A stretch of DNA of 64,000 nucleotides from an uncultured bacterium. Lineage in GTDB: Bacteria; Bacillota; Clostridia; Lachnospirales; Lachnospiraceae. Below the pieces are notes generated by a model. That model was given only the letters and a program-made list of their open reading frames with translations. It had not been told where the DNA came from and made no database searches. A program made the position numbers and the translations under genes. Shown piece by piece: positions 36,191 to 55,270 of this stretch; position 1 is the first letter of the stretch, and every line of letters begins with the position of its first letter. The stretch spans positions 1 to 64,000 of the forward strand of contig CANSYK010000004.1 of NCBI GenBank assembly GCA_947651225.1. The letters are read 5' to 3'.

Positions 36191-36230
36191 ATTATAGTTA
36201 ACGCATGTATTTTATGCGTTTACTATAATT
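36191..36230. repeat. Palindrome, TATAGT-AACGCAT family
   Basis: ATTATAGTTAACGCAT (36191-36206) and ATGCGTTTACTATAAT (36214-36229) are inverted repeats with one mismatch and a seven-base loop. It touches the ydcF-like stop codon. A related palindrome lies at 48473-48512. Confidence 0.6.
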
Positions 36231-45960: not shown

Positions 45961-46060
45961 ATTATAACATCCTATATTGAAAAATAAACAATATTTCCTA
46001 AAAATCACTAATAGCTGGCGTCTTGCGGAATCTATATATATTTCGTTCTCCGCAGACCAG

Positions 46061-46090
46061 GAAAAAGAGCCTGATTCAGCATCAGGCTCC
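46061..46090 (-). terminator. Terminator of the RiPP operon
   Basis: GAGCCTGAT (46067-46075) and ATCAGGCTC (46081-46089) form a perfect stem; on the minus strand TTTTTCC follows. It lies 15 bp after the maturase stop codon. Confidence 0.8.
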
Positions 46091-46104
46091 CACAAAAACT
46101 TCAA

Positions 46105-47355
46105 TCATTCAATTTGTAAATTTTTCATCACTTCCTCGAGCCGTCTCCCATATCCTTCTCGGAAAATCAGACACGAAGCGCAGTCCGGTGCCATAATATC
46201 CGTCTTGTCATAGCACAGGGCACTTGCCCGGCATCCTCCGGCACAAATCTTTGCATATTCACAAGCTCCGCATTCCTCTGTATGCTTTAAGAATTCCTCC
46301 ACACGGGTGTCAATCAGCTTCATGTAGGTCGAATCCGTCAGCCCCTGACGCAATCCTTCCTCGGTAATAAGAGGATATTCTTCCTGTATGTCATAAGAGG
46401 ACAAGGACATACACGGAAGCATACGCCCTTCCGCTGACAGGTACATCACCTGCCTCGCATGACCACATGCAGTCTGATTAAGGCAACTGTCCCCGCCATC
46501 ATACTTCTTTAGCGGAATCGACCATCTTACCTTCTCCCCGCCATATGAATCCTTTCCATTACATGAGAAGAACCCGCCAAGCATCAGCGACAATGGCCTT
46601 CCATCCTCAAAGTACGCCGGGATGTATTCCAGATAGGTTTCCAGTGTTTCTTCCATCGAAATCGAATAATCCCCGCCAAGCCGTTCCCACAGCTCTGTTT
46701 CCGATACCGGATTTGTTTTCAAATGCGAACAATGGTGCCTGGCAAGTGTGCGGATGCTCTGGCGCAGCAGATGTTTATTCCCTTGATGGATACAAAGTTC
46801 AGCGCCGGTCGGGAAACCCATTTCATAACATAAATCAAATGCATTAAGCACAGCTTTACCCGCACCCGGAATTCCCCTGAGCCAATCATGCCATCCTTCA
46901 TCCCCATCATAGCTCATATTAAACTCTGGCTTAATCCCCCTTTGGGAAAGTCCCTGAAGCAATGCTTCATTTACCAGAGCGCCATTGGAATAAATAGTCC
47001 GGATGTCAATATGGCGGTCAAGCAAGGCGTCTACAATCTCCCACCAGTCTTTGCGTATCAGCGGCTCCCCTCCGGTAAGTGTTACCGACATCACGCCACA
47101 TTCTTCCAACTGGCCTATGATATCCATAATTGTCTCATGGGACAATTCCCCATACTTTGCCTCCGGCGCGGACATATAACAATGCCTGCACTTATAATTA
47201 CATTTTCCTGTAATAGACCAATGGGCAGTACGGATAAAACGGTTTTGATATTGACGGTATTCCTGGTCCGGCGCCAGCCCTTCCCCATAACTGCAAGGCT
47301 CCACGATATCTCTTTCAACAGCCATACGGATAAGCTCCTTTGTCCGTTCCGGCAC
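46105..47355 (-). CDS. Radical SAM/SPASM peptide maturase (main open frame)
   Basis: 416 residues from a GTG at 47355. The radical SAM cluster is 'SITGKCNYKCRHCYM' (CxxxCxxC, Cys52/56/59), followed by 'SVTLTGGEPLIRKDWWEIVD'. The C-terminal SPASM region is Cys-rich: 'CGHARQVMYLSAEGRMLPCM', 'HTEECGACEYAKICAGGCRA' and 'DIMAPDCASCLIF'. The family modifies cysteine-rich RiPP precursors, for example by thioether or C-C bonds; the exact reaction is not readable. It is the last gene of the cluster, directly after the precursor. The GTG start has no good ribosome site; the true start is probably at 47474 in another frame (see the separate entry). Whether the short form works is unknown. Confidence 0.9.
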   Translation of the reverse strand: MPERTKELIRMAVERDIVEPCSYGEGLAPDQEYRQYQNRFIRTAHWSITGKCNYKCRHCYMSAPEAKYGELSHETIMDIIGQLEECGVMSVTLTGGEPLIRKDWWEIVDALLDRHIDIRTIYSNGALVNEALLQGLSQRGIKPEFNMSYDGDEGWHDWLRGIPGAGKAVLNAFDLCYEMGFPTGAELCIHQGNKHLLRQSIRTLARHHCSHLKTNPVSETELWERLGGDYSISMEETLETYLEYIPAYFEDGRPLSLMLGGFFSCNGKDSYGGEKVRWSIPLKKYDGGDSCLNQTACGHARQVMYLSAEGRMLPCMSLSSYDIQEEYPLITEEGLRQGLTDSTYMKLIDTRVEEFLKHTEECGACEYAKICAGGCRASALCYDKTDIMAPDCASCLIFREGYGRRLEEVMKNLQIE

Positions 47356-47474
47356 TATTTTTAAGTCACAGTCACACTTGCCGTTACAGAGGCTTAATGC
47401 GTCAAATGCCTCCCGGCTTAAAAATTCAACAGTATTCCGGGGGCGCAGGATTCCTTTAAACGATAATATCCCAT
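47356..47474 (-). pseudogene. Frameshifted N-terminus of the radical SAM maturase
   Basis: An ATG at 47474 follows AAAAAGGAG at good spacing and reads 'MGYYRLKESCAP', then runs into a stop after 18 codons. If the five-G tract at 47439-47443 (five C on the coding strand) had one more base, translation would go 'MGYYRLKESCAPRNTVEFLS' and 'REAFDALSLCNGKCDCDLK' straight into the maturase with no stop. This segment resembles the PqqD-like leader-recognition region that opens many peptide maturases. So the real gene is probably 46105-47474 with a one-base deletion. Confidence 0.7.
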
Positions 47475-47477
47475 AGC

Positions 47478-47624
47478 TTACTCCTTTTTGGCAGCTCTAA
47501 ACCAATCTTCATATTTTACCTCTTTTCTGCGCTGCCTTTTGCCTATACTGCAATGTTTGTGCGGGCAGCGCTTAATCACAAACCTGCCATTACAGAAACA
47601 TTCTTTATTATGGTTCTGGGTCAA
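47478..47624 (-). CDS. Small Cys/His-rich ORF between precursor and maturase
   Basis: 48 residues from a TTG that overlaps the precursor stop codon (TTGA), or 62 from an ATG inside the precursor. It contains 'NKECFCNGRFVIKRCPHKHC' and a basic end 'KYEDWFRAAKKE'. The stop is 3 bp before the maturase ATG, and its last codons carry the maturase ribosome site. The tight packing and the CxC and CPHKHC pattern suggest a real small protein or metal-binding peptide, but I do not recognise it and it could be an old maturase or precursor fragment. Confidence 0.4.
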   Translation of the reverse strand: MTQNHNKECFCNGRFVIKRCPHKHCSIGKRQRRKEVKYEDWFRAAKKE

Positions 47625-48013
47625 TACCCCATTCCATCCCCTAGGCCGCCTATTACACATACACAACGTTCCTTGCCATTTTTGTATTCTCCGCCGCCGC
47701 CAAATACACAGGCGCAGGTTTTATTATTTGTCCCAAAGTCATCGTTGATGCCTCCTTCCCCACCGCCGCCAATTGCGCAGAAACATAGGTTCGCATCTGC
47801 CATTGAACCACCGCCTGTCACAGCTTCTAATTCGTCATCTGCGAGCTCTCCCTTGCTTGCCGCTGGTTGAAAATCCGCCTCGGTAAGTTCTAAACCGTAT
47901 TCTGCCGCTGCCTTAATAAAATCTTGCGGCGTACTGTCAGGAGCCTTGTCCAGTTCTTCGATTTTTGCTTTTAGCTCCAGATTTTGTTCAATCTTCTCTA
48001 AAATATCTTTCAT
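47621..48013 (-). CDS. Nif11-like leader RiPP precursor with three CxC-glycine repeats
   Basis: 130 residues, GAAAGGAAAAGACA before the ATG. Residues 1-68 form a Nif11/NHLP-type leader: helical 'MKDILEKIEQNLELKAKIEE', 'PQDFIKAAAEYGLELTEADF', and the cleavage region 'ELADDELEAVTGG'. The C39 peptidase of the upstream exporter would cut after the Gly-Gly. The core (69-130) has three repeats, 'CFCAIGGGGEGG', 'CACVFGGGGEY' and 'CVCVIGGLGDG', with Cys at 77/79, 100/102 and 117/119. It is the likely substrate of the radical SAM maturase. The mature product may be one peptide or several repeat units. Confidence 0.85.
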   Translation of the reverse strand: MKDILEKIEQNLELKAKIEELDKAPDSTPQDFIKAAAEYGLELTEADFQPAASKGELADDELEAVTGGGSMADANLCFCAIGGGGEGGINDDFGTNNKTCACVFGGGGEYKNGKERCVCVIGGLGDGMGY

Positions 48014-48162
48014 TGTCTTTTCCTTTCTTTTAAATCCATTTACAGCCGATACTTCTTTAAAGATTATGCCGTCTTTCCAATTCCATCTGACCCCTTACAA
48101 AATCGGCCATTCGCTCATTCCTCCTCCTTGTCCTAACACAAATATCAAACACTTAGGAGCTG

Positions 48163-48431
48163 TTAAATAAGGTCACTTATGGAAACATAGTGGGCACCAT
48201 CCCCAACGCCGGATATCACACAGGCACATCTGCAGTCGCCATTCGTGTATTCTCCACCTCCTTCAACCATGCACCCACATGGCTCTCCTCCTGCCACGGC
48301 ATCCAGTTCATCGTCCGTAAGCTCTCCCTGCTCAATTGCGGGTTTAAAGCCTTCTTCCTTAATCTCTATCCCGTATTCCGCAGCTACTTGGATATAATCC
48401 TTTGGGGCGCTTTCTAAATTTACTTCTTCAT
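48163..48431 (-). pseudogene. Second cysteine-rich RiPP precursor, N-terminally decayed
   Basis: A minus-strand frame reads 'EEVNLESAPKDYIQVAAEYG', then 'QGELTDDELDAVAGG', then the core 'EPCGCMVEGGGEYTNGDCRC' and 'ACVISGVGDGAHYVSISDLI'. The core aligns with repeats two and three of the intact precursor (CxC, GGGEY.NG, CxCVI.G.GDG). A ribosome site and ATG stand at 48431, but that ATG is in another frame and stops after three codons. About 20 leader residues are missing compared with the first copy. The frame has no normal start codon, so it is probably a decayed duplicate. Confidence 0.7.
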
Positions 48432-48472
48432 GTCTTTCTCTCCTTTCTTTTTCTGCCTGATTGTTCTTATTT

Positions 48473-48512
48473 TATATAGTAAACGCATTTGTTTTTGCGT
48501 TGACTTCGTATA
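48473..48512. repeat. Palindrome, TATAGT-AACGCAT family
   Basis: TATAGTAAACGCATTTG, then TTTTTGCGTTGACTTCGTAT, has a stem AACGCA / TGCGTT with outer imperfect pairing. It resembles the palindrome at 36191-36230 and lies just after the ECF sigma stop codon, where it may end that transcript. Confidence 0.45.
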
Positions 48513-48520
48513 GCAGCCTT

Positions 48521-49024
48521 TTAATCCTGTTCCAGCCATTTTCTCATCCTGCCAAGCGTCTTCTTATGTATCACACGGGTGTTACTGTATGACATTCCCA
48601 TTATCACTGCGATTTCTTTCAGGCTCTTATTTTTGTAATAGTGCAAAAGAACCAGGTCACGCTCTCGCTCTTCCAGGTTTTCCAGTGCATTTGCAAGCGC
48701 ATCCAAAGACTCTTCCCTCAAAATTCTCTCCAGATTTCTGTCCTGTTCCGGCAGCTGTGGCAATTCCCCACATAACTTCATGGGTGATTCCCGTCCCCTT
48801 TTCCTGTAATAGTCGATGACCACATTATGGGTAATTGCATAAATCCAGGTAGAGTGCGCCGCTTTTTCCTCGGAAAAACTATCAATATTCTGGCATACCT
48901 TCAAAAACACCTGCGATACCATATCCTCCACATCCTGAGGAGTTTCCACCCGGCTTCGTATGTAAGTTTCCACCTTACCTGAAAAGCACTGATAAAGTTC
49001 CTGGAGCAATTCATTATTCTTCAT
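48521..49024 (-). CDS. ECF-type sigma factor in the RiPP cluster
   Basis: 167 residues from the ATG at 49024 after GGAGG; the longer frame to 49084 overlaps the upstream gene. Region 2 is 'TPQDVEDMVSQVFLKVCQNI' and 'STWIYAITHNVVIDYYRKRG'. Region 4 is 'LVLLHYYKNKSLKEIAVIMG' and 'MSYSNTRVIHKKTLGRMRKW'. Its start overlaps the leader-like small gene by 11 bp. A sigma factor inside an NHLP cluster probably controls precursor expression, which would explain the separate precursor unit downstream. Confidence 0.88.
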   Translation of the reverse strand: MKNNELLQELYQCFSGKVETYIRSRVETPQDVEDMVSQVFLKVCQNIDSFSEEKAAHSTWIYAITHNVVIDYYRKRGRESPMKLCGELPQLPEQDRNLERILREESLDALANALENLEERERDLVLLHYYKNKSLKEIAVIMGMSYSNTRVIHKKTLGRMRKWLEQD

Positions 49025-49214
49025 GCCATTCCTCCATAAGCTTACATTCCTGTCCTCCCCTATGCCACACCTCACCGGCGGCATTAACCAGTGAGAGGTT
49101 TTCCTCTGTCAGCTCTTCCCCATACTTGCCTTCTAGTTCCTGCAGCATCTCCTCTATTCTGTGGTTTTTCTGGAAACGCTGATAATCTAATAAAAATATG
49201 AGTTTTTCTTCCAT
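49014..49214 (-). CDS. Small leader-like protein overlapping the ECF sigma gene
   Basis: 66 residues: 'MEEKLIFLLDYQRFQKNHRI', 'EEMLQELEGKYGEELTEENL' and 'SLVNAAGEVWHRGG'. The segment 'LTEENLSLVNAAG' is like the LSDDELE.V.GG end of RiPP leaders, followed by only about 18 residues. It overlaps the sigma gene by 11 bp, so they are translationally coupled. It may be a sigma-partner peptide, an anti-sigma-like protein, or a RiPP-like peptide; the short tail lacks Cys repeats (only one Cys). I cannot assign a function. Confidence 0.7.
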   Translation of the reverse strand: MEEKLIFLLDYQRFQKNHRIEEMLQELEGKYGEELTEENLSLVNAAGEVWHRGGQECKLMEEWHEE

Positions 49215-49307
49215 CTGTATCCCCCGCCTTTCCCGGACCTCCCACTGCCTAATCTATTTATTGATACGCTTCACTTCGGACGAGCGCCAAGATTTTTTAA
49301 AAAATTT

Positions 49308-51485
49308 TTACTCCGCCTGTTGTCTCGCCACAAGCTGTGCAAAATAGCCGTTTAACTCTAATAATTCTGTATATTTCCCATCTTCAATAATTTTTCCGTC
49401 CTGCAATACAATAATCCGGTCACACTGCCGTATCGTTGAAAGCCTGTGTGCAATTACAATCCTCGTACATTTTAAGTTATCCAGAGCCTCCGAAACCTGC
49501 TTTTGCGTCAGATTATCAAGCGCACTTGTCGCTTCATCAAACATCAGGATTTTCGGCTTAGGCGCTACCGCACGCGCAACCAACAGTCGCTGACGCTGTC
49601 CGCCTGAAATACCTCCTCCGCCTTCCGAAATTACCGTGTGCATTCCCATTGGCATACGCCGGATGTCTGCGGCAATGCCAGACATTTCCGCCGCCTCCCA
49701 TGCATCATCCAAAGTCAGCCACGGTGCAGAAATCACAATATTTGAGAAAATATCACCAGAAAAAAGCTTGCCATCCTGTAACACCACGCCAATCCTGCGG
49801 CGCAGGGATTTTAAGTCAATCTTAGCCAAATCCTTCCCGTCGTAGTAAACCGCTCCTTTCTTCGGCATTTCAAATCCTAACAACAGGCGCATAAGCGTAG
49901 ATTTTCCGCATCCTGTCGCCCCCACAATTGCCACATACTCCCCCGGCTTTACCTTCAATGACAAATTGTCAATGACATACGGCATGGAATCGTTATACCG
50001 GAATAAAACATTGTTTAGCTCTATGCCGCCGGAAAGCCGTGTCACTACCTGCTTGTCCCCGGATACCTCCGGCGCCTCGTCAAGCACAGGGCGCAGCATT
50101 TCCATCACAGGCTTAATCTGCGCCACTGTCAATGCTGCCGAAGAAAGTGCCTGAAATGCCCCGCTTACCATTCCGTATGCTGTCTGGAACGCATAATAAT
50201 CCGCTGTACTTACACCACTTTTGATTGCCGCCCAGTACATGGCTATCGTGCCAATAGAAGAGATGGCAAGGGTAATTACACTGGTCAATTTCAAAAATAA
50301 TGGGGGATTCCAATTCATGGCCGCTTCCTTCGCATAAATTCCCGCCCATTTGGAAAATGCACGTTTCTCCGCCCCGGAAAGCCGGATTTTCTGCACACCC
50401 GCAATCAGGCCATAACTAACGCCTTTTTCCTTTGCCTGAAACTCCATCTGCTTTCTCAGCACTTTAATCTGCACAAATGAGGATACAACAGATATAAAAA
50501 GGGTAAGCACCATAACCACAACCGCCGGAATACACAATGCCGGGGCATAACGAAAAATCTGCGTAATATATACAAGGGAAAATACAGAAGTCAGCCCTGT
50601 AGAAAGCACTGCGTCCGCAGTAAGCGTACAGAGTACATCCGCTTTCTGTATCCGGCTTGCCAGTTCTCCTGCATTGTAACCCTTAAAAAATGACGCCGGC
50701 AGCGACAGTATGCGCATCATCACTGCCGACTGTACAGACATACCCATTTTTGCCTTTATCCTTGCCATACATAACGCCTTTACCGCCCCTAAGAGTACCA
50801 ACGCCCCAAGCACACATATCATAAACCATGCCATCGCATACAAAAGCCTGATACTGCCTGAAGGAATGACAAGAGAAAATATTATGTAATTCAATTTCGC
50901 CGGAAGAAGCCCCACAAGAGTCACAACAAACACTGCGGCTGCAACAAATGCCACATCCCATGCAGATAAGGTATTCAGGGCATATTTGAAAAAATCCCCA
51001 TAACTTACCTTGCAAAGCGGCAAAGGCTTATAAAAACAAATCGCCTCTTCCTCAAAATATTCTTCGTTCCTGTGATTCACCCGTATCCATTTGCCTGTGT
51101 CCACATCCAAAAAGCGATAACCGAATGCCGTCGGAATCAGGGCTGCAATGCGTTTCGTATCCCGCCACACGGCAAGAAATGGTCCTGTGGCATCTTTGTA
51201 CCATCCCTTTTCCAGCTTGACTGTACGCCGCATAATGCCCGTGGGACGCAGCAGATACTCAAGCTGTTCATTCATTCCCTGCAAATATTCCGGAAATTCA
51301 CGGATTTTAACATGGTAGAATTTCAAGATTTCATCCATGGCGTTCTGGGCTTGCTGCCTGTCATTTTCTAATGCCGCCGTCACCTTTTCTCCCATGACCG
51401 CCCCAGCCATCTTCACAAATGCTTCCTGGAACGCATCATCGTCATATTCCATCCGCTGCTTTATCTGGCCTTCAAACCATCCCAT
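49308..51485 (-). CDS. NHLP-type bacteriocin exporter, permease/ATPase subunit without peptidase
   Basis: 725 residues. The first 150 form a cytoplasmic domain ('LEYLLRPTGIMRRTVKLEKG', 'RIAALIPTAFGYRFLDVDTG') typical of the second ABC subunit of NHLP systems. Then come six membrane helices, and an ATPase with Walker A 'GATGCGKSTLMRLLLGF', signature 'ISGGQRQRLLVARAVAPKPK' and Walker B 'ILMFDEATSALD'. It lacks a C39 domain. It follows the peptidase subunit by 14 bp and probably pairs with it as one exporter. Confidence 0.93.
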   Translation of the reverse strand: MGWFEGQIKQRMEYDDDAFQEAFVKMAGAVMGEKVTAALENDRQQAQNAMDEILKFYHVKIREFPEYLQGMNEQLEYLLRPTGIMRRTVKLEKGWYKDATGPFLAVWRDTKRIAALIPTAFGYRFLDVDTGKWIRVNHRNEEYFEEEAICFYKPLPLCKVSYGDFFKYALNTLSAWDVAFVAAAVFVVTLVGLLPAKLNYIIFSLVIPSGSIRLLYAMAWFMICVLGALVLLGAVKALCMARIKAKMGMSVQSAVMMRILSLPASFFKGYNAGELASRIQKADVLCTLTADAVLSTGLTSVFSLVYITQIFRYAPALCIPAVVVMVLTLFISVVSSFVQIKVLRKQMEFQAKEKGVSYGLIAGVQKIRLSGAEKRAFSKWAGIYAKEAAMNWNPPLFLKLTSVITLAISSIGTIAMYWAAIKSGVSTADYYAFQTAYGMVSGAFQALSSAALTVAQIKPVMEMLRPVLDEAPEVSGDKQVVTRLSGGIELNNVLFRYNDSMPYVIDNLSLKVKPGEYVAIVGATGCGKSTLMRLLLGFEMPKKGAVYYDGKDLAKIDLKSLRRRIGVVLQDGKLFSGDIFSNIVISAPWLTLDDAWEAAEMSGIAADIRRMPMGMHTVISEGGGGISGGQRQRLLVARAVAPKPKILMFDEATSALDNLTQKQVSEALDNLKCTRIVIAHRLSTIRQCDRIIVLQDGKIIEDGKYTELLELNGYFAQLVARQQAE

Positions 51486-51499
51486 AGCTGCTCTGCCTC

Positions 51500-53680
51500 C
51501 TATTCACTGCTGACAAGCTTTGTATAAAGTCCCCCTGCAGCATATAATTGCTCATGTGTGCCGCGTTCTACAACTCTTCCATTGTCCATGACAATAATCT
51601 CGTCGCAATCCCGTATTGTAGAAAGTCTGTGCGCAACGACAATACATGTTATCCCCCGGTTCTTAATCGATTTGACGACCTCATATTCCGTCTTTGCGTC
51701 AAGTGCACTGGTCGCCTCATCCAATATGATAATGGTAGGATCCTGCGCCAGCACCCTCGCAATCTCCATACGCTGTCTCTGACCTCCGGAAAAATCCTTA
51801 CCGCCTTCAATAATTTTGTACTGGTATCCTCCGTCGCGCTGCATGATATCTTCGTGAAGCTGCGCATCCCTTGCCGCCAGAATCATTTCAAAATCCTCAA
51901 TGGAATGGTCCCACATCTTAATATTGTTCGCAATGGTATCCTCAAAAAGAATAATATCCTGGTCAACAACAGCAAGCGAACCTGAAAAAATATATGGCTC
52001 AACCGAATCAAAAGGCTTCCCATCAAATAATATTTCACCCTCCCATGGCTGATAGAGGCCGGAAACCAGCTTTGACAGTGTAGATTTTCCACAACCGGAG
52101 GCGCCCACAAAGGCAACCCGGCTGCCCTGTTCAAGCGTAAGGTTAAAATCCTTGATTAACGGCGGCGCAAACCTTGAGTAACCAAACGTAACGTTCTTCA
52201 TCTCAATTTTTCCCGAAAGCTTCGCATAATTGACGCTTTCCGTATCCGTATTACCGTAGGTATAACGTACATCCTGCGGATATTCCATCACATCTTCTAC
52301 CCGCTCCATCTGCGTACGCATTTCCTGCAAGCTCTGGCCTGCCTGTATCAACTTCATCGCAGGAGTGGTAAAAGAATTCAGAAATCCCTGGAACGCCAAA
52401 ATCATACCCTCCGTAAACTTCCCACCTATTACCAGATAAACACCAAGCAGCGTTACAGCCGTATTCGTCACTACGCTAACAAGCTGTGGAACCAGACCGA
52501 GATAGGCATCTAGCTTTGTATACCGCTTCTGCCCTGCAAAAGCGCCTGCCTGGTAACCCGCCCACTTTTCAAAATATCCGTTTTCCGCGCCGCTGGCCTT
52601 AATGGACTCAACCATCTCAATACCGGATACTGTCATCCCTGAAAGCTTGCCGGAATCCTTTAGCTGCACCCTTGTAATATCAATACGCCTTTTTGATATA
52701 AAATGCGACATTGCCAGATTAATAAATACAGACAACACACCAATAACAGTAAGCGCCGGGCTGTAGCTAAGCATTGCCGTAAGGTACACCACCATCATGG
52801 CCGCATCAAGCACCAGTGGGGCAAACGTATCTATCAGTGTCTTTGCAACCGCTGCATTGTCCTCCTGCCTCTGCTGGATATCTCCCGCCATGCGCTGTGA
52901 AAAAAACTCCATCGGCATATGCAGCACATGCCACAGAAAAGAACTGCTTCCTGTCACAGCAAGCTTTCCGCCAATGCGCAGGGAATATACCGCGCGCATC
53001 CACTCCACTACAATCTGCAAAGCCACAATACCACACATGGCAAGAAAGAATCCTCTGCACCAGTCCAGATTAACCCCTGTCAGCAAACGGTCCAGGAAAA
53101 TCCTGGAAAAAATCGGATTAATTATCCCAATCACCGACACTACCAGAGATGTCAGCACAACAAATATAACTGCCACTTTTGTCCCCTGCAATTTCTTCTT
53201 TGCAAATGACAGCATACTTTTGGGTTTTCCCTCCGGCTCAAAAGTCTCCTCTGGCTCAAACAGCAGGCAAACCCCTGTAAAAGATTCGTCAAAAGTTTCC
53301 ATGGTCACACTGTATGTTCCCTTTGCCGGATCATTCAATATAGCCTTGCCTTTCTTAAACCCATTTAACACGACAAAATGATTGAAATTCCAATGAATGA
53401 TACATGGAAATGTTCCCTGCTGCCGCAGCGTTTCCGGTTCATACCGATATCCCTTTGCATTCAGTCCATAACCTCGTGCCGCACGCAGTATATTCTTTGC
53501 ACTGGAGCCGTCCCTTGATACACCGCAGTCTGCACGTACCCGCTCTAACGGAAGCCATTTTCCATAATAGGCAAGTATCATCGCAAGAGAAGCCGCCCCA
53601 CATTCTAACGCCTCCATCTGCATCACCACCGGAACCTTTGCACAGCTATTCTTCACCGGCTGCCTCTGTACTCTTCCCAT
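51500..53680 (-). CDS. NHLP-type bacteriocin exporter with C39 peptidase domain
   Basis: 726 residues from the ATG at 53680 after TTGAGGTGG; an ATG seven codons earlier overlaps the adaptor gene. The N-terminal C39 peptidase has catalytic Cys in 'QMEALECGAASLAMILAYYG', His in 'IIHWNFNHFVVLNGFKKGKA' and Asp in 'ILNDPAKGTYSVTMETFDES'. Six membrane helices follow, then an ATPase with 'GASGCGKSTLSKLVSGL', 'FSGGQRQRMEIARVLAQDP' and 'IIILDEATSALD'. It cuts leaders after Gly-Gly and exports the core. It forms the export module with the adaptor and the second subunit. Confidence 0.95.
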   Translation of the reverse strand: MGRVQRQPVKNSCAKVPVVMQMEALECGAASLAMILAYYGKWLPLERVRADCGVSRDGSSAKNILRAARGYGLNAKGYRYEPETLRQQGTFPCIIHWNFNHFVVLNGFKKGKAILNDPAKGTYSVTMETFDESFTGVCLLFEPEETFEPEGKPKSMLSFAKKKLQGTKVAVIFVVLTSLVVSVIGIINPIFSRIFLDRLLTGVNLDWCRGFFLAMCGIVALQIVVEWMRAVYSLRIGGKLAVTGSSSFLWHVLHMPMEFFSQRMAGDIQQRQEDNAAVAKTLIDTFAPLVLDAAMMVVYLTAMLSYSPALTVIGVLSVFINLAMSHFISKRRIDITRVQLKDSGKLSGMTVSGIEMVESIKASGAENGYFEKWAGYQAGAFAGQKRYTKLDAYLGLVPQLVSVVTNTAVTLLGVYLVIGGKFTEGMILAFQGFLNSFTTPAMKLIQAGQSLQEMRTQMERVEDVMEYPQDVRYTYGNTDTESVNYAKLSGKIEMKNVTFGYSRFAPPLIKDFNLTLEQGSRVAFVGASGCGKSTLSKLVSGLYQPWEGEILFDGKPFDSVEPYIFSGSLAVVDQDIILFEDTIANNIKMWDHSIEDFEMILAARDAQLHEDIMQRDGGYQYKIIEGGKDFSGGQRQRMEIARVLAQDPTIIILDEATSALDAKTEYEVVKSIKNRGITCIVVAHRLSTIRDCDEIIVMDNGRVVERGTHEQLYAAGGLYTKLVSSE

Positions 53681-53691
53681 ATGCCACCACC

Positions 53692-54174
53692 TCAATTCCA
53701 TAAAAACGACATCGGAGATACGCTTTCCACCACAATCTGCGCCTCATACTGCCCATCCGAAACAGCGTCCCCTGCCGGCTGTGCATCAATGGCGAACACA
53801 AAACTGTCCCCCTCAAAACCACCAAGATATTGGAGGTAAGGTTCTAAGCTGTCCGATACTTTCTCCGGACGTATGCTCTTTTTGCTCACAACGTACTCGA
53901 CGCCGGATACTTCTACGCTCATGCCCTCCTCTATCTCCTGAGCCTGCTCAGACGATACATAACACACCATATTGCCGCCATCTACGACCGCCGCAACAGG
54001 AAGCGTCGTTTTAAGCTCCCCGAAAAATCCCCAGACACAGACACCGGAAAGGAGAAGAAATACAGCTGCTAACACAAGCCACACACCTGTATTTACGACA
54101 CAAAGATACTGGTTAAACTGTTCTGGTGATGAGATTTTATCTAGACTTTTTTTCCGGAATATTCCATTTTCCAT
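53692..54174 (-). CDS. Short HlyD-like adaptor of the NHLP export system
   Basis: 160 residues. A short cytoplasmic N-terminus ('LDKISSPEQFNQYLCVV') precedes one transmembrane helix ('VWLVLAAVFLLLSGVCVWGF') and an extracytoplasmic barrel-like part with 'TLPVAAVVDGGNMVCYVSSE'. NHLP HlyD proteins are normally two to three times longer, with a coiled-coil hairpin that is absent here; short versions are plausible in Firmicutes, which lack an outer membrane. It is the first gene of the operon, 11 bp before the peptidase subunit. AAAGGAGG precedes the start. Confidence 0.75.
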   Translation of the reverse strand: MENGIFRKKSLDKISSPEQFNQYLCVVNTGVWLVLAAVFLLLSGVCVWGFFGELKTTLPVAAVVDGGNMVCYVSSEQAQEIEEGMSVEVSGVEYVVSKKSIRPEKVSDSLEPYLQYLGGFEGDSFVFAIDAQPAGDAVSDGQYEAQIVVESVSPMSFLWN

Positions 54175-54335
54175 TACTACAAACCTCCTTTACTTGGTAC
54201 AACAGTACTGTAGCAAAATGTAAATCACTTTGTATTTTACAGAAATTTGCCTAAATTTCTATAGGCAGAGAATGATTTGTAGTTTTAGGGGAACAATTCG
54301 CAAATGAAAGTATTTGGCACAATTTCCTAACGCAT
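54175..54335 (-). promoter_or_regulatory. Upstream region of the RiPP operon
   Basis: This stretch holds the leader of the export operon (ribosome site AAAGGAGG). An AT-rich tract with TTTACA and TGTACC 17 bases apart (minus strand, near 54199-54228) may be the promoter. It could be sigma-A or the cluster's own ECF type; I cannot decide. No gene is visible. Confidence 0.3.
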
Positions 54336-54361
54336 TAAAAAAACGGCAGCTTTTGCTGCCG
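54336..54361 (-). terminator. Terminator after rsmA
   Basis: CGGCAGC (54344-54350) and GCTGCCG (54355-54361) form a tight stem; on the minus strand seven T residues follow. Confidence 0.85.
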
Positions 54362-54412
54362 AACCGATAAAATAATAGCGAAACAATAACTTTTATACTC
54401 ATAAAATTGTCT

Positions 54413-55270
54413 TTATAGTAACAGATTACTCAACTGTGCAAACTCCTGTAACGACAGCCGCTCGCCCCGGACATCCGGTTGCAGCCCCATCTTCTCCAAT
54501 GCCTGGACTGCCTGCTCTTTTGTTACCCCGAGTGCAGCGTCATTTCCTAAACCATTTACCAATGTCTTTCTCCTCTGGTTAAAAGACGCCCGAACCACAC
54601 GGAATAAAAACGCCTCATCACTTACAGTGACCGGCCTGTCCTTATGGCAGGTTAAACGGATTACCGCCGAACCAACCTTTGGCCGCGGCATAAAACAATT
54701 CGGTGGCACATTCGCTACCACCTCTGCCTTTGCATAATATTGTACCGCAAGGGACAGCGCACCATATTCCTTTGTCCCCGGAGCCGCCTGCATCCGCTCC
54801 GCTACCTCTTTCTGTACCATTACCGTAATACTTTCTAATGGCACATGTGCCTCAAAAAGCCCCATAATAATTGGTGTTGTAATGTAGTATGGCAAATTTG
54901 CGACTACCTTAATCGGCTTCCCTTGATTATATTCCTGAGCCAGCTCTGCAATATCAATTTTTAGAACATCCTCATTTAAAACCGCAACATTATCATAACC
55001 TGACAACGTTTCCTCCAGAACCGGAATCAGCTTCCGGTCAACCTCAACTGCCACAACCCGCCTTGCCTTTTCACATAAATACTGTGTCATTGTCCCGATT
55101 CCCGGGCCAATTTCCAATACAAAATCCTCTGCAGTAATCTCTGCAGCACGAACGATTTTCTCCAGTACATGGGTATCAATCAAAAAATTCTGCCCATATT
55201 TTTTCTGGAAATGAAAATCATATTTTTGTAAAATTTCTATCGTATTCTGTGGTATTCCAAGTGTCGCCAT
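54413..55270 (-). CDS. rsmA: 16S rRNA (adenine1518-N6/1519-N6) dimethyltransferase
   Basis: 285 residues. It dimethylates two adenosines in the 3' hairpin of 16S rRNA. SAM-binding motifs are 'FVLEIGPGIGTMTQYLCEKA' and 'VVAVEVDRKLIPVLEE'; the catalytic motif is 'VVANLPYYITTPIIMGLF'. 'KKYGQNFLIDTHVLEKIVRA' and the C-terminal 'FNQRRKTLVNGLG' are family hallmarks. It stands downstream of tatD, a common pairing in Firmicutes, but separated by 142 bp and a terminator. Confidence 0.96.
   Translation of the reverse strand: MATLGIPQNTIEILQKYDFHFQKKYGQNFLIDTHVLEKIVRAAEITAEDFVLEIGPGIGTMTQYLCEKARRVVAVEVDRKLIPVLEETLSGYDNVAVLNEDVLKIDIAELAQEYNQGKPIKVVANLPYYITTPIIMGLFEAHVPLESITVMVQKEVAERMQAAPGTKEYGALSLAVQYYAKAEVVANVPPNCFMPRPKVGSAVIRLTCHKDRPVTVSDEAFLFRVVRASFNQRRKTLVNGLGNDAALGVTKEQAVQALEKMGLQPDVRGERLSLQEFAQLSNLLL

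Follow-up and report, generated by a model that had tools for sequence, protein, structure and literature searches.

Three described systems come closest to the locus studied here. The Nif11-like leader RiPP precursors (TIGR03798/PF07862; N11P, Haft et al. 2010, PMC2887384) form paralogous arrays, share a leader family with a double-Gly cleavage motif, and adjoin NHLM/C39 export genes. Cleavage of the leader at Gly-Gly by a C39 transporter, with export of the core, is established for this class (PMC6363468). The lah cluster of Lachnospiraceae C6A11 (LahA1-9/LahT; PMC6363468) combines an array of Nif11-leader precursors with a C39 transporter. The third is the group of RRE-radical SAM-SPASM/Twitch maturases of the SkfB, CteB and SuiB type (sactipeptides, ranthipeptides, streptide). 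RREs bind leader peptides (PMC6231123), and some radical-SAM RiPP enzymes act leader-independently (PMC8326336).

The window, a stretch of 64,000 nucleotides from an uncultured Lachnospiraceae bacterium, carries on one strand, in this order, a HlyD-like gene, two NHLM exporter genes, a small ORF, an ECF sigma factor gene, a second and a first precursor, and a radical-SAM enzyme gene (Table 1). This locus is a Nif11-class RiPP cassette (Nif11/radical-SAM/NHLM). It has all the N11P features named above; however, the described N11P cores are variable after Gly-Gly, whereas the core here is conserved as (CxC-x3-GxG) x3. The host family, the precursor array and the C39 transporter resemble the lah cluster, but lah products are lanthipeptides made via a lanthionine synthetase, and no such gene was seen in the window cassette. 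The maturase is predicted to have the three domains of the SkfB/CteB/SuiB type, with an RRE-like N-terminus and a Cys-rich, SPASM-like C-terminus, but identity in structural alignments is 15-17%. To our knowledge, the precursor cores here are unlike those of known sactipeptides or ranthipeptides.

The second precursor is read here, with a probability of about 85%, as a young pseudogene derived from one of the tandemly arrayed paralogues that encode Nif11-leader RiPP precursors. A net loss of 58 nt in the leader split its start from its frame, and its core is one 17-residue repeat short. The substrate array and the maturase start are decaying together, and the transporters are intact.

Table 1. 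Positions of the cassette features in the window.
Feature	Position	Strand	Remarks
Radical-SAM/SPASM maturase gene	46105..47474	-	Conserved ATG at 47474 is out of frame
Third precursor remnant	47491..47572 (about)	-	Duplicated 5' UTR, ribosome site and ATGAAGA only; then the ribosome site of the maturase
Intact first precursor	47621..48013	-	68-residue Nif11 leader and core with three CxC-x3-GxG repeats; TIGR03798 35.3 bits, over cut-off
Second precursor, open precursor-like frame, stop to stop	48163..48471	-	No standard in-frame start ahead of the cleavage motif
Residual core, second precursor	48166..48285	-	Two CxC-x3-GxG repeats (EPCGCMVEGGGEYTNGDCRCACVISGVGDGAHYVSISDLI)
Residual Nif11-type leader, second precursor	48286..48414	-	TIGR03798 profile positions 28-68; ends in double-Gly motif ELTDDELDAVAGG
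Surviving start codon, second precursor	48420..48431	-	Behind AGGAG; MKK-stop, out of frame with the remainder
ECF-type sigma factor gene	48521..49084	-	Directly upstream of the precursors; intact
NHLM export ABC transporter, permease/ATPase subunit	49308..51485	-	TIGR03797 over cut-off; intact
NHLM export ABC transporter with C39 peptidase (leader-cleaving)	51500..53701	-	TIGR03796 and PF03412; intact
Short HlyD-like NHLM secretion protein	53692..54174	-	TIGR03794 partial match; equal length in relative

The repeat unit of the precursor family

The maturase family was found at 29 loci in public genomes, mostly of Lachnospiraceae and other Clostridia, with two Synergistaceae and one Selenomonadaceae. 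The similar peptides that the sequence-only reading had expected elsewhere do exist: 51 precursor frames in 19 loci adjoin this one radical-SAM family, and 44 of them have the core grammar (C-x-C-x3-G-x-G) x3, with exactly three motif copies. Two copies are present in 6 frames, and four, by overlap, in 1. Nearly all 51 frames have a full leader with an ATG start, and the leaders of all close relatives' precursors are 66-69 residues long. Sixty random 64-kb sequences with the window's first-order composition contained no two CxC-x3-GxG motifs within 60 residues of each other.

An alignment of 30 three-repeat precursors shows both Cys and the first Gly of the motif to be invariant throughout the three repeats. 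Because its rows were picked for CxC pairs, the Cys conservation is partly built in, which does not apply to the Gly positions of repeats 2 and 3. The second Gly is invariant in repeats 1 and 3 and present in 28/30 in repeat 2. A Thr usually stands before repeat 2 and an Arg before repeat 3. No such conservation is seen for the acidic residue that follows the Gly run: repeat 1 mostly has Thr, repeat 2 has Glu in 8/30 and repeat 3 has Asp or Glu in 15/30. The earlier suggestion that the glycine and acid positions surviving in the second precursor show which residues matter is thus not borne out. In each unit it is the two Cys and the two Gly that are conserved, and a young pseudogene keeps whatever was there.

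Ten relatives' precursors pass the TIGR03798 cut-off of 32.3 bits. Within the curated libraries, only the leader of the family precursors was recognised, and other matches were far below their cut-offs. No description of CxC or tri-repeat Nif11 radical-SAM precursors was found in the open-access literature, a scope within which absence is weak evidence. The tri-repeat precursors form a family without its own model in the libraries searched, and this family is a variant within the known Nif11-leader RiPPs.

Two further groups of precursors were observed. An Oscillospiraceae bin (L058, 4830-9900) has at least nine family precursors in one array, with GCGC as repeat 2. Distant maturases of about 30% identity (L010, 12445-13862; L011, 9624-10245) lie beside Nif11 precursors with CPxC...C..C zinc-ribbon-like cores; they were left out of the family set on account of these different cores, and they are a separate, possibly unusual RiPP group.

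Deletions in the second precursor

A frame and core of the kind described in the sequence-only reading are present at 48163-48431, and the frame has no further stop or frameshift in its remainder. Its closest intact homologue was identified in Bacterium D16-51 (L008:11576-11950), directly downstream of the same sigma gene. This homologue, one of the full-length versions sought in related strains, has a 66-residue leader and three core repeats. It is the best match to the second precursor for both the whole frame and the core, and the tail HYVxxSDL is common to both.

Aligned to this homologue, the second precursor lacks a net 58 nt of leader just after ATGAAGAAG, which shifts the frame and agrees with the earlier estimate of about 20 missing residues. 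The ATG whose A lies at 48431 follows a good Shine-Dalgarno sequence (AGGAG), and the precursor frame is another frame. Because of the 58-nt deletion, all that can be read from this surviving ribosome site and ATG is M-K-K-stop. The core lacks 51 nt, exactly one 17-residue repeat, in frame. The core had been matched to repeats 2 and 3 of the first precursor. The similarity holds (61% over 31 residues), but the alignment to the homologue favours a core in which one unit begins as repeat 1 and ends as repeat 2 and the other unit is repeat 3; the exact breakpoint cannot be placed between near-identical repeats.

The motif ELTDDELDAVAGG is followed by EPCGC... and a Cys/Gly-rich core, and a C39 transporter gene is present in the locus; such a double-Gly motif is the site recognised by C39 proteases (PMC6363468). 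The core has two CxC-x3-GxG repeats against three in the first precursor, and the frame is not a translatable ORF with a start codon for a full leader. The match to TIGR03798 (25.8 bits, E = 9.1e-6) covers only profile positions 28-68 of 68 and is below the whole-protein cut-off because the leader is truncated. The second precursor is a truncated relic of the Nif11-leader family and not a full member. In the whole genome, TIGR03798 matches only the first and second precursors; no further Nif11 leader was found.

Divergence from the D16-51 homologue is constraint-like, with dN/dS of 0.16 over 75 codons and 0.04 over the 38 codons of the leader part, where 2 of 12 changes are nonsynonymous. The dS of this pair is 0.7, and that between precursor copies is 0.7-1.2, well above the 0.15-0.25 of the larger neighbouring genes of the locus. 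The high precursor dS is consistent with turnover or gene conversion within the arrays. The second precursor and the D16-51 homologue may be paralogues rather than strict orthologues, and strict orthology is not claimed.

Such constraint indicates that the inactivation is recent, or that translation of the frame may still be possible by some unusual route. By the latter explanation, a non-standard start, a frameshift or re-initiation after MKK-stop would give a short-leader substrate still cleavable by the C39 protease. The frame is stop-free, the 13 leader residues needed by a Nif11-processing C39 protease, including Leu-12, Glu-8 and Leu-7, are intact (PMC6363468), and a distant relative (L050) has apparently intact precursors with two repeats. 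However, as the sequence-only reading had stated, no in-frame ATG, GTG or TTG is present from the upstream stop just past 48471 to the cleavage motif; the sole standard in-frame start is a GTG at 48297, inside that motif. By eye, the first near-cognate start is an ATC within the residual leader, and no obvious slippery site was seen; rescue by an alternative start or frameshifting was rejected on these grounds. The full-length leaders of all close relatives also argue against a short-leader substrate. With sequence constraint and the intact protease-recognition motif as its positive support, continued function is considered unlikely.

Decay of the maturase gene and the third precursor

The decay is wider than the earlier note stated, and extends to the maturase gene and a third precursor. 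Compared with two relatives, the maturase gene lacks 43 nt at about 47444-47450, just after the conserved ATG, which is out of frame because of this loss. Direct repeats of TCCTGCG lie at the deletion junction in the close relative G025. A standard start first occurs in frame at 47355, where a GTG corresponds to family residue 55 and has no evident ribosome site. All family loci covering the gene start begin at residue 1-3, and L12-R13-G14 is invariant. Most of the RRE-like N-terminal domain is lost from the frame in this way, although such a loss need not abolish activity, since leader-independent radical-SAM RiPP enzymes exist. No second maturase was found in the genome at E 1e-40 or better. 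The window maturase differs from that of G025 by four substitutions in 416 codons. These few substitutions, together with the constrained codons of the second precursor, indicate that both inactivations are recent.

Since the N-terminal domain had no Pfam match even at E 10, its fold was predicted from relatives' sequences (pLDDT 87). RREs are among the best structural matches (lasso B1 6jx3 with Z 6.9, TbiB1, PqqD 5sxy and CteB), at Z 5-7, all below 8, and unrelated proteins score as high (Z 7.5, 7.2). The top Foldseek match was TbiB1 (E 0.09), and the full maturase model aligns over SuiB and most of SkfB. The domain is predicted to fold like RREs, with a moderate fold match. The maturase reached no NCBIfam equivalog (best 94 bits against a cut-off of 515), and its match to TIGR04103, nif11-class peptide radical SAM maturase 3, was 87 bits, under the curated cut-off of 725. 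By eye, the cassettes listed showed neither a lanthionine synthetase nor any other modifying enzyme, which leaves the radical-SAM enzyme as the only candidate modifier.

The third precursor has been deleted almost entirely. Its remnant is nearly identical to the 5' UTR, ribosome site and ATGAAGA of the D16-51 second precursor, and its deletion junction is common to the window and G025. The earlier count of at least two substrates with the same repeat grammar therefore holds, with the second defective, and rises to at least three, the third consisting of a 5' UTR and start codon remnant.

The same maturase is present in two genomes of the same genus at 96-99% identity. In Bacterium D16-51 (L008/L030), three intact precursors follow one another. 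G025 has a homologous three-repeat precursor with a 1-nt frameshift in the leader (L009 49-406), and a precursor in L038 has no leader start. The loss of array members therefore recurs.

The deletions could instead have arisen in assembly or sequencing, or represent a single allele in a mixed population, with the gene intact in the living strain. The genome is a draft of 167 contigs, tandem near-identical repeats can be mis-joined, and the relative's assembly breaks inside its own precursor array (L009). Yet deletions of 58 nt and 43 nt with unique flanks are atypical of sequencing errors, and the third-precursor junction is also found in the independently assembled G025. An artefact is regarded as even more improbable than continued function. 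A chance low-complexity match of a short, Cys/Gly-rich core is refuted by the synteny with the intact homologue, the Nif11 HMM match and the local alignment of the second to the first precursor (score 214; 5000 shuffles, mean 31.7, maximum 62), in which the core alone scores 112 against a shuffle maximum of 64 and the leader alone 141 against 50.

The transporters, sigma factor and HlyD-like gene have intact frames, with dN/dS of 0.10-0.16 against D16-51. A 66-residue protein between the exporter and sigma genes (49014-49214, minus strand) carries ELTEENLSLVNAAG, like the cleavage region of a Nif11 leader. A similar protein (LSDDELEWVNAAG) adjoins an ECF sigma gene in L011 (11578-11847). The 66-residue protein is possibly an anti-sigma factor or a leader mimic. 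An inverted repeat, AACGCA-N8-TGCGTT, lies upstream of the second precursor at 48482-48501 and is kept in Bacterium D16-51 (L008 11507), with a similar one at 36200-36220; it is a possible regulatory site. No Rfam RNA family was found in 46000-54500, and the promoter and terminator scan was near background.

Proposed pathway and meaning for the family

In the intact system, the ECF sigma factor would probably drive the precursor array, and the RRE-like N-terminal domain of the radical-SAM/SPASM enzyme would recognise the Nif11 leader. The enzyme would then modify the CxC-x3-GxG repeats, with Cys-based thioether crosslinks as a first guess at the most likely chemistry. The C39 domain of the NHLM transporter would cut after Gly-Gly and export the core, presumably as an active product. 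With the second precursor as a young pseudogene, initiation at its surviving ATG would end after three codons, and no second product is expected in the window strain. The 'intact' first precursor may never undergo modification there. The pathway is probably inactive or close to it.

As a case of pseudogene decay, the relic is ordinary. In the locus around it, the array of substrates and the start of the maturase gene are decaying in parallel, but the exporter genes remain intact. Production of this peptide family has thus probably ended, or is ending, in this gut bacterium, whereas close relatives still have intact genes for it. Those relatives, in Lachnospiraceae, other Clostridia and Synergistaceae, could define a RiPP family nameless in the libraries searched, with a Nif11 leader and three CxC-x3-GxG repeats, each modified by the dedicated RRE-like/radical-SAM/SPASM enzyme with an undescribed chemistry, such as crosslinking of the Cys pair to the Gly run or formation of a product that binds metal; this proposal is tentative, at somewhat less than even odds. 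The 51 frames in 19 loci tie a conserved CxC-x3-GxG unit to one uncharacterised radical-SAM family, which makes the substrate rule of this enzyme directly testable.
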